Source: Paracoccaceae bacterium
Lineage (GTDB): Bacteria; Pseudomonadota; Alphaproteobacteria; Rhodobacterales; Rhodobacteraceae
Assembly (NCBI GenBank): GCA_014879735.1
Contig: JACSRN010000045.1
Coordinates: 1-40,721 of the forward strand
Direction of reading: 5' to 3'
DNA length: 40,721 nucleotides
The notes under the pieces: model-generated
Databases searched by the model: none
The model's input: the letters and a program-made list of their open reading frames with translations, nothing else
Told to the model about the DNA's origin: nothing
Position numbers and translations under genes: made by a program
In this document: piece by piece, positions 28,306 to 32,617 of the stretch
Position numbering within the stretch: the stretch's first letter is position 1
How the letters are laid out: the number at the start of each line of letters is the position of its first letter

Positions 28306-29130
28306 TCAGCGGCCACGGGTAAAGCCCGGGCCGCCCGGCCGCCGCCGCACCGCCAGCGAGACGGCAGCATAGATCGGAAACCCGACCGGGTGGCGCAGCG
28401 CCAGCGCCGCAAGGCCGCCCGGGGTCAGCCGGGCCTTGCCCTCGCGCGACAGGATACCGGGGAAACGGTCTTCCAGTTCCTTCACCCCGGCATCCTGCCG
28501 GCGGCGCACCTTCACCAGCGCGGCAAAGCCCTCGACCATCGGCCAGTCGTAGCGGGCCGGTACCTGCACCCGCTCGCCCGGCACGAACTGTAACCGCACG
28601 AAAGTGTCGTCCGAGATCAGCCGCGGAAAGCTGCCCCAGCGGGCGCGACCCGCGGCATTCACCGCATATAGCCCGTAGCCCGGCGCCACGGCGCGGTTGA
28701 AGGGCAGGTCCTGCCAGAACCGCGCATAGGCCCGCGTCACCCAGGACCGCGCCCGCGGGATCGCCGGCGTGGCCCCGGCATAGGTCGGCGCCGGGCGCGA
28801 CAGCGCGGCAGCGATCTGGGCCAGCACATCGGGCGTCACCACGCAATCGGCGTCGAGATAGGCGCGGCAGGTTCCCGAAGCCGCCAGGTCGCCGGCATCC
28901 AGCGCGCCGGGCTTCGACCCCTCGGCCAGATCCAGCACCGTGACCCGCCAGCCATCCGGCACCGGCACGGCCCGCGCCACATCGGCCGTTTGGTCGCGGC
29001 ATCCGTTCGCCACCACGATCACCTCGGCCCCCCCCGGCACGGGCCGGCTGGCCAGCACGGCCGAAAGGCAGCGGCCGATCCAGCCCTCTTCGTTCGATGC
29101 CGGGATGATGACGCTCAGCACCCGTGGCAT
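28306..29130 (-). CDS. Family 2 glycosyltransferase
   Basis: The 274-residue GT-A enzyme has SVIIPASNEEGWIGRCL near 6-22, VVANGCRDQT, the metal-binding DAD (93-95) in YLDADCVVTP, and DDTF near 174-177 as second acidic site. It lacks the QxxRW processive motif and has no more than one hydrophobic stretch (about 235-255), so it should transfer single sugars from a nucleotide donor, perhaps at the membrane. Donor and acceptor are unknown. Its start overlaps the end of the SGNH-glycosidase-like gene by 16 bases, so both are translated from one mRNA. It is probably part of a surface-polysaccharide pathway. Confidence 0.9.
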   Translation of the reverse strand: MPRVLSVIIPASNEEGWIGRCLSAVLASRPVPGGAEVIVVANGCRDQTADVARAVPVPDGWRVTVLDLAEGSKPGALDAGDLAASGTCRAYLDADCVVTPDVLAQIAAALSRPAPTYAGATPAIPRARSWVTRAYARFWQDLPFNRAVAPGYGLYAVNAAGRARWGSFPRLISDDTFVRLQFVPGERVQVPARYDWPMVEGFAALVKVRRRQDAGVKELEDRFPGILSREGKARLTPGGLAALALRHPVGFPIYAAVSLAVRRRPGGPGFTRGR

Positions 29131-31694
29131 CCGGTGGCCAGCGCCCGCCAGCGCGGGTTTTCATCGGCCAGATGGCGCAGCGCGCCCCAACTGCCCCATT
29201 TGCCTGGCGCATAGACATCGACAAAGGCATTGAACGGCGCATCCGTCGCCCCGGCCCAGCCTTCCAGCATCTCGGCATAAAGTGCGCCCATGCCGGATGT
29301 ATAGTTCAGATGAGTGAAGAAGGCGGTCAGGGTGGGGTCGTCGACCACCGCGCCCATGCCGACGACATGGCTGCCACCTTCGTACATGGCAAGCTTCAGC
29401 CCGTACCCTGCCGCGACTGCCTGATGATAGGGCATGATGTCGGTCAGAAACGACCGGACGGTATCTTCCGGCCGGCCGGTGGTGCTGCCATCGCGCAATT
29501 CGGCCAATGCGCGCGCATCGGCCAGATCGTAGCGGTGCGCCGCGACATAGGCGGCGGCCTCGTCGCCCGCCAGATGCGCCGCCCCCGCCTTGGCTGCCGC
29601 CTCGCTTTCCGCCAGCCAGCCTTTTACCACCGGCACCTTTTCATCGGATCCCAGCAATGCCGCAAAATAGCCCGTCACGGCATAGGCATCGAAGGACTGC
29701 ACCGGCGGCGACTTGCCTTCTGCCACCACGCGCGGAGCGTTGAGGATCTGATCCTCGACCCCCTTGTTGCCGGTCTGGGTCGCCACCACGCGCACCAGCC
29801 GGTCGCGCCCCAGGACCTCGGTCCAGATCGCCATGACCTCGGCCGCGCGCATCCCGTAGAACTGCAACCAGGAATATTGCTGGTTCCACCGCGCCATGGC
29901 CTGTTCCTCGGCCCATTGCGCCTGACCGAACTGCCAGTTCCAAACCTCATTGGAATATTCCAGCCAGACTCGCAGCCGGGGGTCCAGACCCTGCGCGACC
30001 ACGCCCGCCATCTCGCGCACCAGCGCGTCGTCGGCTCCGTGCGGGATGTTGATCCAGGGCTCGGCCTGCAGGCGATTGGCCAGCGCGACGATGATCTCCA
30101 CCGGCACACCGTGTCGCGCCCAGGAATAATCGTCGGGGCGCGGCCGGTCGGCAGCCGTGGACAGCGGGGAATTGTTGGTGGCCAGCCAGTCCATGAAGCG
30201 CAGGCCCCGCACGCCCTCGATCCGGGCCAGCCAGTCGGGGTTGAAGATCTCGCCCGCGACCAGCGCCGCCTCGCGCTCTTCGCGCAGGATGCGGATGTGG
30301 CGCAGCGGATCGGCCTCGTCGGTCTCGGTCAGCGTCAGTTCCACGCCGCCCAGGCCTGGCGCAAAGTCGAAGCTGGCGCGACCCGGCCCCTGCACCACAT
30401 TCGTGGCCCGCCCGCCGATCTGCAATTCCCCCTTGCCGTCATGGAGCAGCAGGTAGCGACCGGCCACGCCGCCGGTATCGGCAGGCAGGTCGGTCAGGAC
30501 CAGCGTGGCAATGCCGGTGATCTGATCGGGAATCCGGATGGGCCAACCCGCGGCATCAAGCGCACCGGCCGCGCGCAACTCGCTCTCCTCCCAACCGCCC
30601 CATTGCCCGGGCAGATGGCCGACCCAGGGTCGCGCCGTTTTCATCACATCGAGGAAAGGCTGCTGCACCGACCAGTCGTTCACGCCGGCCAGCCCCAGCG
30701 AAAGCCGGGGATTGGTGATCCTGGTGAAGATCGCGGCATCTGCGGCGGCAGGATCGGCGCCGGCCGCGGCCGCGGGTTCAGATGCGGGGCCGGTGGTCGC
30801 ATCCGGCGGTGGGGCCGCCGGATCCGCATCCGCCGGCGCGGACTCCGGTGGCGCCGGCTCGACCGCGGGCGCCAGCTCGACCGCCGGTGCGGGCGCAGGC
30901 TCTACCGTGGGTGCAGGCTCGACCGCGGGCGCCGCTGGCGCCGCAATCGGCGGTGGGGTTGCGGCGAATGCCGACACCGCCTCCCAGGCAACCTGCTGCA
31001 ACACCCTTGCCTGCGCCTCGGTGATCACAGAGGCGCGGTTTGGCCAGATCCGGAGCAGTCTTGCCGGCAACCCTTCGGGCGAGCGGCCGGTCAGCGCGGC
31101 CAGTTGCACCATCGCCAGGAAATACTGGCCCTTGCCATTGGGGTGAATCCCGTCGTCGAACAACTGGCCAAGACTGTCGATGCCGGGCAGCCCGCCCGCC
31201 TCGATCCGCTCGGACAGCAGCGCGAAGGCCTGACCGGCCGGAATGATCGCCGCCGCCTCACCGGCTGCCTTGCGCCACAGCGGCAGATCCGCCGCAATCG
31301 CAGCCCGCCATCCGGCCGCATCGGCGCCGGCGATCTCGGGCCAGGTCTCGTAGAGCCAGACCTTCGCATCGGGGCTCGCCGCATGGGCGGCATCGGCCCA
31401 GCGGATGACAAGTTCGGCGCTGCCCGCATCCCTCACCTGATCGGCAATCGGTTGCGCCTCTGTCAGGATCAGCGCCCCGACATCCCCTGCCGCCAGTGCC
31501 GCCCGCGCGTCGAGGCCCGCCTCGGCGGAATGGTCCCAGTTCCAGGCCAGCGACGCACCCACAATCACCTGCGCCTCGACCGTGGCTGTCGCCTCCATCG
31601 CGGCAAGCCCGGATTCGACCATGCGCGGCAGATCCGACCCCACGAGGGAATGGCCGACGAACACCACCTTGGCCAGTAGCGAGAACAGCGACAT
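29115..31694 (-). CDS. SGNH-like domain fused by a Pro/Ala linker to a glycosidase-like (cellulose-binding-annotated) domain
   Basis: The 859-residue protein has three parts. Residues 1-245 form an SGNH-hydrolase-like domain: GHSLVG with candidate nucleophile Ser16, VWLYETW near 112-118, and DGIHPN with the Asp181/His184 pair. Residues about 246-325 are a Pro/Ala/Glu linker with VEPAP repeats. Residues about 326-859 match a bacterial family often labelled cellulose-binding protein; EYSNEVWNWQFGQA carries Glu583 in an NE pair like clan GH-A acid/base residues, and Glu772 in MYEGG is a possible nucleophile. Cleavage of, or binding to, a beta-glucan-like polymer is inferred, not shown. No signal peptide is visible, because the SGNH block begins at residue 11. 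The ATG at 31694 lies two bases after the upstream gene's stop. Confidence 0.85.
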   Translation of the reverse strand: MSLFSLLAKVVFVGHSLVGSDLPRMVESGLAAMEATATVEAQVIVGASLAWNWDHSAEAGLDARAALAAGDVGALILTEAQPIADQVRDAGSAELVIRWADAAHAASPDAKVWLYETWPEIAGADAAGWRAAIAADLPLWRKAAGEAAAIIPAGQAFALLSERIEAGGLPGIDSLGQLFDDGIHPNGKGQYFLAMVQLAALTGRSPEGLPARLLRIWPNRASVITEAQARVLQQVAWEAVSAFAATPPPIAAPAAPAVEPAPTVEPAPAPAVELAPAVEPAPPESAPADADPAAPPPDATTGPASEPAAAAGADPAAADAAIFTRITNPRLSLGLAGVNDWSVQQPFLDVMKTARPWVGHLPGQWGGWEESELRAAGALDAAGWPIRIPDQITGIATLVLTDLPADTGGVAGRYLLLHDGKGELQIGGRATNVVQGPGRASFDFAPGLGGVELTLTETDEADPLRHIRILREEREAALVAGEIFNPDWLARIEGVRGLRFMDWLATNNSPLSTAADRPRPDDYSWARHGVPVEIIVALANRLQAEPWINIPHGADDALVREMAGVVAQGLDPRLRVWLEYSNEVWNWQFGQAQWAEEQAMARWNQQYSWLQFYGMRAAEVMAIWTEVLGRDRLVRVVATQTGNKGVEDQILNAPRVVAEGKSPPVQSFDAYAVTGYFAALLGSDEKVPVVKGWLAESEAAAKAGAAHLAGDEAAAYVAAHRYDLADARALAELRDGSTTGRPEDTVRSFLTDIMPYHQAVAAGYGLKLAMYEGGSHVVGMGAVVDDPTLTAFFTHLNYTSGMGALYAEMLEGWAGATDAPFNAFVDVYAPGKWGSWGALRHLADENPRWRALATGCHGC
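30846..30929 (-). repeat. VEPAP-type coding repeat in the linker of the fusion protein
   Basis: The linker encodes near-repeats of Ala-Val-Glu-Pro-Ala-Pro about four times (residues about 256-283), and the DNA shows matching near-identical units of about 18-30 bases. Such tracts change length readily by slippage and form extended, flexible spacers between domains of secreted enzymes. Confidence 0.7.
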
Positions 31695-31696
31695 GA

Positions 31697-32617
31697 TCAC
31701 TCCGCCTGCGAAACGCCCGTCGCAGGATAGGACGTGACCACGCGCCAGACCACCTCTTGCAGCGCGCGCGCCATATCGGGGGCCACAGCCGTGGCCGCCG
31801 TGCCATCCGCCTTTCGCAGGGCCACGGGCAGGCCGACCGGCGAACGGCCGTAGATCACCGCGTAATGGGTGTTCGCCATCAGCCAGGCGCCGAGATCGTT
31901 GAAATGGATCTCGTCGGCAAAAAGCGCATCCGTGCCGGCAAGGCCGGGAATTTCGCCGGCAGCGGCCGCCCGCTCGACCGCCGCCATGACCTGTCCGCCG
32001 GGAATGACATGGATCACCCCCACGCCGGGCCGCGCCATGGCCCGGCGCAGCAGCGCGCCCTCCCACAGCGCGGGCAGATCGGCATCGAGCCGGGCCAGCC
32101 AGCCTGCCGGATCGTCGCGTCGGTGCCAGGTCTCGTAGAGATAGATCCGCACGGCAGGGTTCGCCTGGCGCGCGGTCTTCGCCCAGTAGGCCAGCGCCTC
32201 GGCCGAGCCGTGATAGCGGATGGCATCCTTCAGCTCGACCATCTCCGTCAGCACCACGACAGGATAGTCGCCGCTGGCCAGCGCCTCATCGACCGGGCGG
32301 AAGGCCGGGCTGCGGTTCTCCTCCGCCATGCCGCGCACCTCTCCTGTCTGGTGCTCGCGCAGCGACACCCCCCAGCCAAGCTGGCTTGCATGGTCGTGCC
32401 CGGCCAGTTGCGCCAGCATCGCCGGCATGTCGCGGCCAACCAGCGAATGACCGAGGTGATAGACCGCCACGGGCCCCGCCAGCGGTGGCAAGGGCTGCCC
32501 ATAGGCTGCAGCGAAGGCCGCCTCGTCCAGCCGGCCCGGCCGGCACAGGACAAACATCCCGGCAGCAAGCAGCGCCGCCACGGCAAGCCCCGATCCGATC
32601 CATCTTGCCCTGCGCAC
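31697..32617 (-). CDS. Membrane-anchored SGNH-like protein, paralogue of the downstream fusion's first domain
   Basis: The 306-residue protein has an N-terminal hydrophobic anchor (about 8-25) and then an SGNH-like domain facing the periplasm: GHSLVGRDMP with candidate nucleophile Ser58, VVLTEMVEL, IYLYETWHRR near 158-166, and DEIHFNDLG with Asp235/His238. The same blocks in the same order occur in the fusion protein encoded next. Esterase or O-acetyltransferase action on a polysaccharide is plausible for this fold, as for AlgX/AlgJ-type enzymes, but unproven. The start is a GTG at 32617 with GGGAGGA upstream. It is the first gene of the locus and is divergent from the LYS1-like gene. Confidence 0.8.
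   Translation of the reverse strand: MRRARWIGSGLAVAALLAAGMFVLCRPGRLDEAAFAAAYGQPLPPLAGPVAVYHLGHSLVGRDMPAMLAQLAGHDHASQLGWGVSLREHQTGEVRGMAEENRSPAFRPVDEALASGDYPVVVLTEMVELKDAIRYHGSAEALAYWAKTARQANPAVRIYLYETWHRRDDPAGWLARLDADLPALWEGALLRRAMARPGVGVIHVIPGGQVMAAVERAAAAGEIPGLAGTDALFADEIHFNDLGAWLMANTHYAVIYGRSPVGLPVALRKADGTAATAVAPDMARALQEVVWRVVTSYPATGVSQAE

Follow-up and report, generated by a model that had tools for sequence, protein, structure and literature searches.

What might a bacterium do with an esterase-like protein, a second such protein fused to a putative glycosidase, and a glycosyltransferase, all encoded side by side? The question is raised by three minus-strand genes in a stretch of 40,721 nucleotides from a Paracoccaceae bacterium (contig JACSRN010000045.1 of assembly GCA_014879735.1; the whole stretch is referred to here as the window). 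Members of the Rhodobacterales often colonise surfaces in the sea, and to our knowledge little is known about the polysaccharides of their matrix. An earlier note, made from the sequence of the window, had read the three genes as a possible pathway for making and decorating or trimming one surface glycan. It named two outcomes that would speak against this reading, rare co-occurrence of the genes elsewhere and a C-terminal half of the fusion without a glycosidase-like barrel; neither was observed.

The gene arrangement and motifs given in that note were all recovered. All features described here lie on the minus strand. SGNH1 (31697..32617) starts with GTG and encodes an SGNH-fold esterase-like protein of 306 residues with a hydrophobic N-terminus (19-residue hydropathy mean of 2.23 at residue 7); the membrane anchor proposed earlier is in keeping with this stretch, which may be a signal or an anchor. 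A gap of 2 bases separates its stop codon from the start of the fusion gene (29115..31694), which encodes 859 residues from the ATG at 31694, a start preceded by GGAG; the longer mechanical open reading frame of 983 residues begins upstream, within SGNH1. The fusion lacks a recognisable signal peptide. It is composed of an SGNH2 domain (30957..31667, residues 10-246), an Ala/Pro/Glu-rich linker read from the translation (30735..30956, about residues 247-320) and a C-terminal barrel domain (29118..30734). Each SGNH domain carries the motif GHSLVG and a DxxH, and the barrel carries SNEVWNW. The fusion gene overlaps by 16 bases with the gene of a GT2 glycosyltransferase (28306..29130, 274 residues), which holds the DxD-type motif DAD (in LDADC) and is the only part of the cassette with a confident Pfam family (PF00535, E 1.9e-17, 64.2 bits against a cut-off of 23.3). 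In the window no tRNA was found, and the cassette stands by itself, with an era-like gene on one side and AlaDh- and saccharopine-dehydrogenase-like genes on the other. A mobile cassette was considered and dismissed: relatives occur in 25 plasmid records, but the copy in the window has these genes as its neighbours.

Within the genus the barrel was present in 12 of 13 genomes, own genome included, and the relatives in the 11 others were 54-70% identical. Screening of named genomes gave 301 confirmed stretches, the best 80 of which were analysed; by record title nearly all of these 80 belong to the Rhodobacterales. Two records titled Nocardioides marinus (L092) and Exiguobacterium profundum (L109) contain Rhodobacterales-like cassettes and are probably mislabelled assemblies. 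The order SGNH1, SGNH2-barrel, GT2 was kept in 60 of the best 80 loci. A separate SGNH1 was missing from nine (among them L080, cut by a contig end), and in another nine the barrel had no adjoining SGNH2, a class in which L069 is interrupted by stops and L089 has an ambiguous N-terminus; the remaining two touch contig ends, as L072, L080 and L085 all do. The interrupted SGNH2 and barrel frames of L069 (L069:5140-7383) are apparently decaying or misassembled. With gene starts chosen by a simple rule, an overlap of exactly 16 bases between barrel and GT2 genes was found in 16 of 63 measurable loci. The conservation over 80 loci and the intact residues described below rule out chance reading frames or a decayed fusion. 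In wider samples, 49 of 121 genomes of the order and 8 of 299 genomes of the phylum encoded the barrel, five of the latter eight belonging to the family of the window.

The co-occurrence of the three genes, which the earlier note had named as a check, was also visible at the level of whole genomes. Among the 121 genomes of the order, the GT2 was present in 45 of 49 with the barrel vs 8 of 72 without it (Fisher 3e-20), and the SGNH protein in 28 of 49 vs 7 of 72 (Fisher 2.5e-8), the latter counted with one SGNH row for most genomes and most fused SGNH2 rows left out; these tests ignore kinship among the genomes. In 38 of the 49 barrel genomes the barrel and GT2 genes shared a strand and lay within 3 kb of each other, and at the 3 kb distance the barrel was near both GT2 and SGNH in 20 genomes. 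The exceptions comprised eight genomes with GT2 and no barrel, four with the barrel and no GT2, 21 with the barrel and no SGNH at E 1e-15, and seven with SGNH and no barrel.

A still wider association links the cassette to genes for exopolysaccharide (EPS) synthesis. In roseobacters it adjoins Wzx-type exopolysaccharide genes and a nonribosomal peptide synthetase (NRPS). A survey of flanking genes in 82 loci, made with a simple gene caller that misplaced some starts and restricted to families present in at least 4 loci, recovered GT4 glycosyltransferases in 34, MOP-type flippases in 28, Wzz-like proteins in 26, NRPS-like reading frames in 23 (excluding one false member, L034), phosphopantetheinyl transferases (PPTase) in 15 and sugar-phosphate transferases in 10. 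The genome of the window has its other EPS genes on a separate contig (C19; L156:1-20000 and L157:184-4716). There a sugar-phosphate transferase (Bac_transf, E 2.7e-59), a flippase homologue (438 bits) and a Wzz-type gene (E 2.6e-10) lie together, as in Wzx/Wzy-type clusters, along with a GT4; the Wzy_C match of 20.3 bits falls below the cut-off of 31.7, so the Wzy part of the cluster is weak. The same contig encodes a polyketide synthase (PKS) of 2183 residues with the domain order KS-AT-DH-KR-ACP-TE and an NRPS of 1511 residues with formyltransferase, adenylation, luciferase-like monooxygenase and carrier domains.

In the genus, the 12 of 13 genomes that have the barrel also have flippase and GT4, and the remaining one lacks all three. 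Across the order, a flippase scoring at least 400 bits, a cut picked after the scores were seen, was found in 41 of 49 barrel genomes vs 1 of 72 others; at a looser E of 1e-60 the counts were 43 of 49 vs 14 of 72. The GT4 at E 1e-60 was less specific than the flippase (48 of 49 vs 20 of 72), and the queries for both proteins were taken from cassette-linked loci; like the tests above, these comparisons take no account of kinship. The flippase gene lay within 10 kb of the barrel in 34 of the 41 genomes and further off in seven, the genome of the window among them. These genes thus tend to be kept in one genome even where they have ceased to be neighbours. A second context was seen in five loci (L125, L134, L135, L136 and L137), where barrel, this type of GT2, flippase and PKS share one stretch; the flippase and PKS of L125 were the ones run through Pfam. 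The associations of the barrel with GT2 and with the flippase rule out three unrelated neighbouring genes.

The proposal of one surface glycan is thus well supported by the EPS-cluster context. The three genes do not look like a pathway in themselves, as had been suggested, and resemble accessories of a larger Wzx-type cluster. On balance we consider it probable that the cassette is an accessory or maturation part of a Wzx-type EPS pathway which deacylates and trims that polysaccharide. A glycosidase and an esterase are also a common pairing in catabolism, and the set could serve the breakdown of a foreign polysaccharide. Two recurring neighbours would suit such a function: a heparinase II/III-like gene, found in 26 of 82 loci beside a purH-like gene (e.g. 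L033:653-2377), and one resembling MFS sugar transporters, found in 9 of 82. We regard a catabolic set as very improbable: of the 49 barrel genomes, 38 have the GT2 within 3 kb of the barrel and 34 have the flippase within 10 kb, and the heparinase-like gene is absent from the tested neighbours in the window. Given its recurrence beside the purH-like gene, it may simply belong to the site as a constant neighbour. Neither the heparinase-like nor the MFS sugar-transporter-like gene is assigned to the EPS system here.

By sequence the SGNH parts matched Pfam only at E 0.03 (GDSL_2, DUF4886), below the cut-offs; with E values up to 1 allowed, the fusion had the sub-cut-off GDSL_2 as its sole match. 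The AlphaFold model of SGNH1 (pLDDT 92.2) matched the DUF4886 structure 4i8i at E 2.5e-7 and also resembled GDSL proteins, rhamnogalacturonan acetylesterase, CE3 and CE2. After dropping of pieces shorter than 200 residues or containing X, the Ser of block I was present in 68/69 SGNH1 and 65/66 SGNH2 sequences, the Asp of the block V DxxH in 69/69 and 65/66, and its His in 69/69 and 66/66. The block III motif of SGNH hydrolases is GxND. After the strand where its Asn is expected, the cassette proteins have a T-E pair, the Glu of which is found in all 135 sequences of both sets. The cassette SGNH proteins share the fold, the Ser and the DxxH with DUF4886 and carbohydrate esterase proteins (4i8i, rhamnogalacturonan acetylesterase, CE2, CE3), but stay below Pfam cut-offs and carry Glu at the expected place of the block III Asn.

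SGNH2 is 37% identical to SGNH1 over fusion residues 10-246. In a quick tree, with a midpoint root for drawing, SGNH1 and SGNH2 fell on the two sides of one branch (SH-aLRT 99), and the SGNH domains of two RTX-bearing relatives grouped on the SGNH2 side. This topology suggests that the pair and the fusion arose by one old duplication and fusion, and the split on one branch rules out a fresh SGNH duplication in each genome.

We infer removal of acyl groups by SGNH1 and SGNH2. SGNH proteins of some EPS systems, such as those like AlgX and AlgJ, are acyltransferases, and the cassette proteins might likewise add acyl groups while the barrel binds or transglycosylates the chain. The block III Asn not seen in the cassette proteins would accord with such a function, as would an MBOAT protein encoded close to L126, a distant barrel, and an AT3-SGNH protein close to another, L143. 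The subset of recurring neighbour families that was run through Pfam contained no MBOAT or AT3; moreover, the closest folds are DUF4886 and acetylesterases, and both glycosidase Glu residues of the barrel are invariant. Acyl addition with a binding or transglycosylating barrel therefore appears rather improbable to us.

The C-terminal half of the fusion matched no Pfam or NCBIfam family, and a sequence search against solved chains of the PDB gave no significant match. A known Pfam glycosidase was accordingly discarded as its identity, and as judged by Pfam, NCBIfam and solved-chain comparison the barrel matches no named glycoside hydrolase (GH) family. The earlier note had proposed a structure prediction for the 859-residue protein. 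The AlphaFold model of the C-terminal half, built on a 12-sequence genus alignment (pLDDT 83.3, pTM 0.84), is a glycosidase-type (beta/alpha)8 barrel. Between its first and second strands lies a beta-rich insert that spans roughly residues 75-152 of this half. The top Foldseek match in the PDB was the GH51 arabinofuranosidase 2c8n (E 1.5e-4, TM 0.37-0.40), the only one below 0.001, followed by galactanases, xylanases and mannanases. The first 15 matches belong to GH51, GH53, GH10 or GH26, all of clan GH-A, and rank 16 was Old Yellow Enzyme, an unrelated barrel enzyme. Because of the weak scores and this unrelated match, the clan assignment rests on the fold together with the placement of residues.

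In enzymes of clan GH-A the acid/base is a Glu that follows an Asn where strand 4 ends, and the nucleophile is a Glu on strand 7. With strands numbered by reading their order in the model, the barrel has Glu583 (codon 29946..29948; NE of SNEVWNW), the proposed acid/base, just past strand 4, and Glu772 (codon 29379..29381; YEGG), the proposed nucleophile, on strand 7. In A1 numbering, N263-E264 directly follows the strand 257-261 and E453 lies on the strand 448-456. Both residues were invariant in 81 of 81 cassette barrels and likewise in every one of the 32 rows of a broader alignment, in which Rhizobiales and a cyanobacterium were represented. The barrel hence models as clan GH-A-like, with both Glu where expected. 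A further feature common to many barrel relatives is the terminal Cys pair, in the window the C-terminal GCHGC (29118..29132). Of 80 barrels, 54 have such a pair (GCxxC or similar) at their end; the 26 without it include records of Sulfitobacter, Tropicibacter, Ruegeria, Phaeobacter and Leisingera.

Where the fusion acts was approached through its relatives. Sec- or Tat-like starts were recognised by eye in seven of the nine loci with barrels lacking an adjoining SGNH2, and such starts were also present in the barrels of L143 (Shinella) and L171. Some relatives carry RTX repeats or DUF4214 (the RTX matches of L134 and L137 are below cut-off), among them the SGNH-barrel-RTX protein of L122, which has DUF4214 as well. 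Together these starts and domains make many members of the family look exported. The fusions of the cassette look like the puzzle among these apparently exported relatives: those with a visible N-terminus start at the first SGNH strand, and no signal peptide was seen by eye.

The fusion may accordingly remain in the cytoplasm beside the GT2, for quality control or recycling of lipid-linked or mis-made units, with SGNH1 alone in the periplasm. Besides the missing signal peptide, the GT2 is cytoplasmic by family and its gene overlaps or nearly touches that of the fusion. Against this location stand the Sec- and Tat-like starts of the relatives, the RTX and DUF4214 parts of L122, which point to type I secretion, and the acidic, Ala/Pro-rich linker and pI of 4.71, which fit an exported protein. 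We consider a cytoplasmic fusion unlikely, with a small but real chance of being correct.

Several distant barrels merit a separate description. On a Paracoccus marcusii plasmid typed as mobilizable (L139:3474-10379), a protein of 2302 residues joins SGNH, GH16, 14 RTX stretches and the barrel. The barrel stretch of a Roseobacter denitrificans plasmid (L141) holds glycosyltransferase and nucleotide-sugar genes, with the exosortase XrtD about 15 kb away. The distant barrels L126, L127, L128, L130, L131, L133 and L141 lie in EPS-type gene stretches, L126 and L141 being RTX-bearing; the exosortase was identified by Pfam in L130 and by annotation in L141, the other EPS-type genes by eye. In Shinella (L143:11845-14899), the gene of a barrel with a Tat-like start lies shortly before a Poly_export (Wza-type) gene, and the AT3-SGNH protein is encoded nearby.

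For an accessory part in EPS maturation, the following sequence of steps can be proposed. In the cytoplasm the GT2 would extend the lipid-linked repeat unit by one sugar. The flippase, whose gene lies elsewhere in the genome of the window, would turn the unit over, and proteins of the Wzy/Wzz type would join the units into a polymer. O-acyl groups, most likely O-acetyl, would be stripped by SGNH2 and by SGNH1, the latter at the periplasmic face. The barrel, as a putative retaining endo-glycosidase with Glu583 as acid/base and Glu772 as nucleophile, may cut the deacylated chain and in this way set its length or clear mis-exported polymer.

The PKS and NRPS genes of the cluster allow an extension of this scheme. 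The EPS might carry acyl or aminoacyl groups supplied by the PKS and NRPS (with the PPTase); SGNH1 and SGNH2 would act on these groups, and the barrel would cut only where the chain had been processed. We consider this extension doubtful; if true, a polyketide- or peptide-decorated exopolysaccharide would be spread through the Rhodobacterales. Excerpts of a study on Paracoccus treat NRPS/PKS clusters and, in those parts, leave exopolysaccharide unmentioned (PMC8273931). The PKS and NRPS link in any case prompts the question which groups are attached to the polymer. The barrel itself represents a glycosidase-like family without a Pfam model, linked to one EPS flippase type and often fused to an esterase-like domain. 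The cassette offers a test case for cells that trim their own matrix, and the barrel a possible biofilm-dissolving enzyme.

In the open-licence literature no publication on the cassette or the cluster was found, in line with the earlier view of an architecture without a characterised counterpart; that view does not extend to the kind of architecture, for which PgaB and PelA are precedents. Both resemble the fusion in joining an esterase or deacetylase domain to a glycoside hydrolase within an EPS system. They have CE4 domains, whereas the cassette fusion has SGNH and Pfam found no CE4 in it, which makes it a non-member that may work alike. PgaB is a GH153 enzyme, whereas the cassette barrel has a Glu pair of the clan GH-A type. 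The PgaB and PelA systems are synthase-type and that of the cassette flippase-type. PgaB of the PNAG system is described as having deacetylase and glycoside hydrolase in one chain (PMC5933820), and PelA of the Pel system as a deacetylase joined to a hydrolase (PMC10269871; PMC9894940). PgaB is periplasmic, in contrast to the cassette fusion with its lack of a recognisable signal peptide.

Other EPS-tied hydrolases provide further parallels. PslG of Pseudomonas, a GH39 member of clan GH-A, is likewise tied to an EPS; it is not known to have an SGNH partner, and the cassette barrel has no significant sequence match to solved chains. ExoK and ExsH of Sinorhizobium, both GH16 enzymes, differ in export, one being of the signal-peptide type and the other type I secreted. 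Both export styles also occur in the barrel family, but Pfam found no GH16 in the cassette fusion, and GH16 was seen only in the Paracoccus relative. ExoK and ExsH are described as succinoglycan depolymerases that are tied to one EPS and control its chain length (as cited in PMC5099689), and the cassette would resemble them in its mode of action. The capsule cluster rcc01081-01086 of Rhodobacter capsulatus is likewise a rhodobacterial surface polysaccharide locus (PMC10218006).
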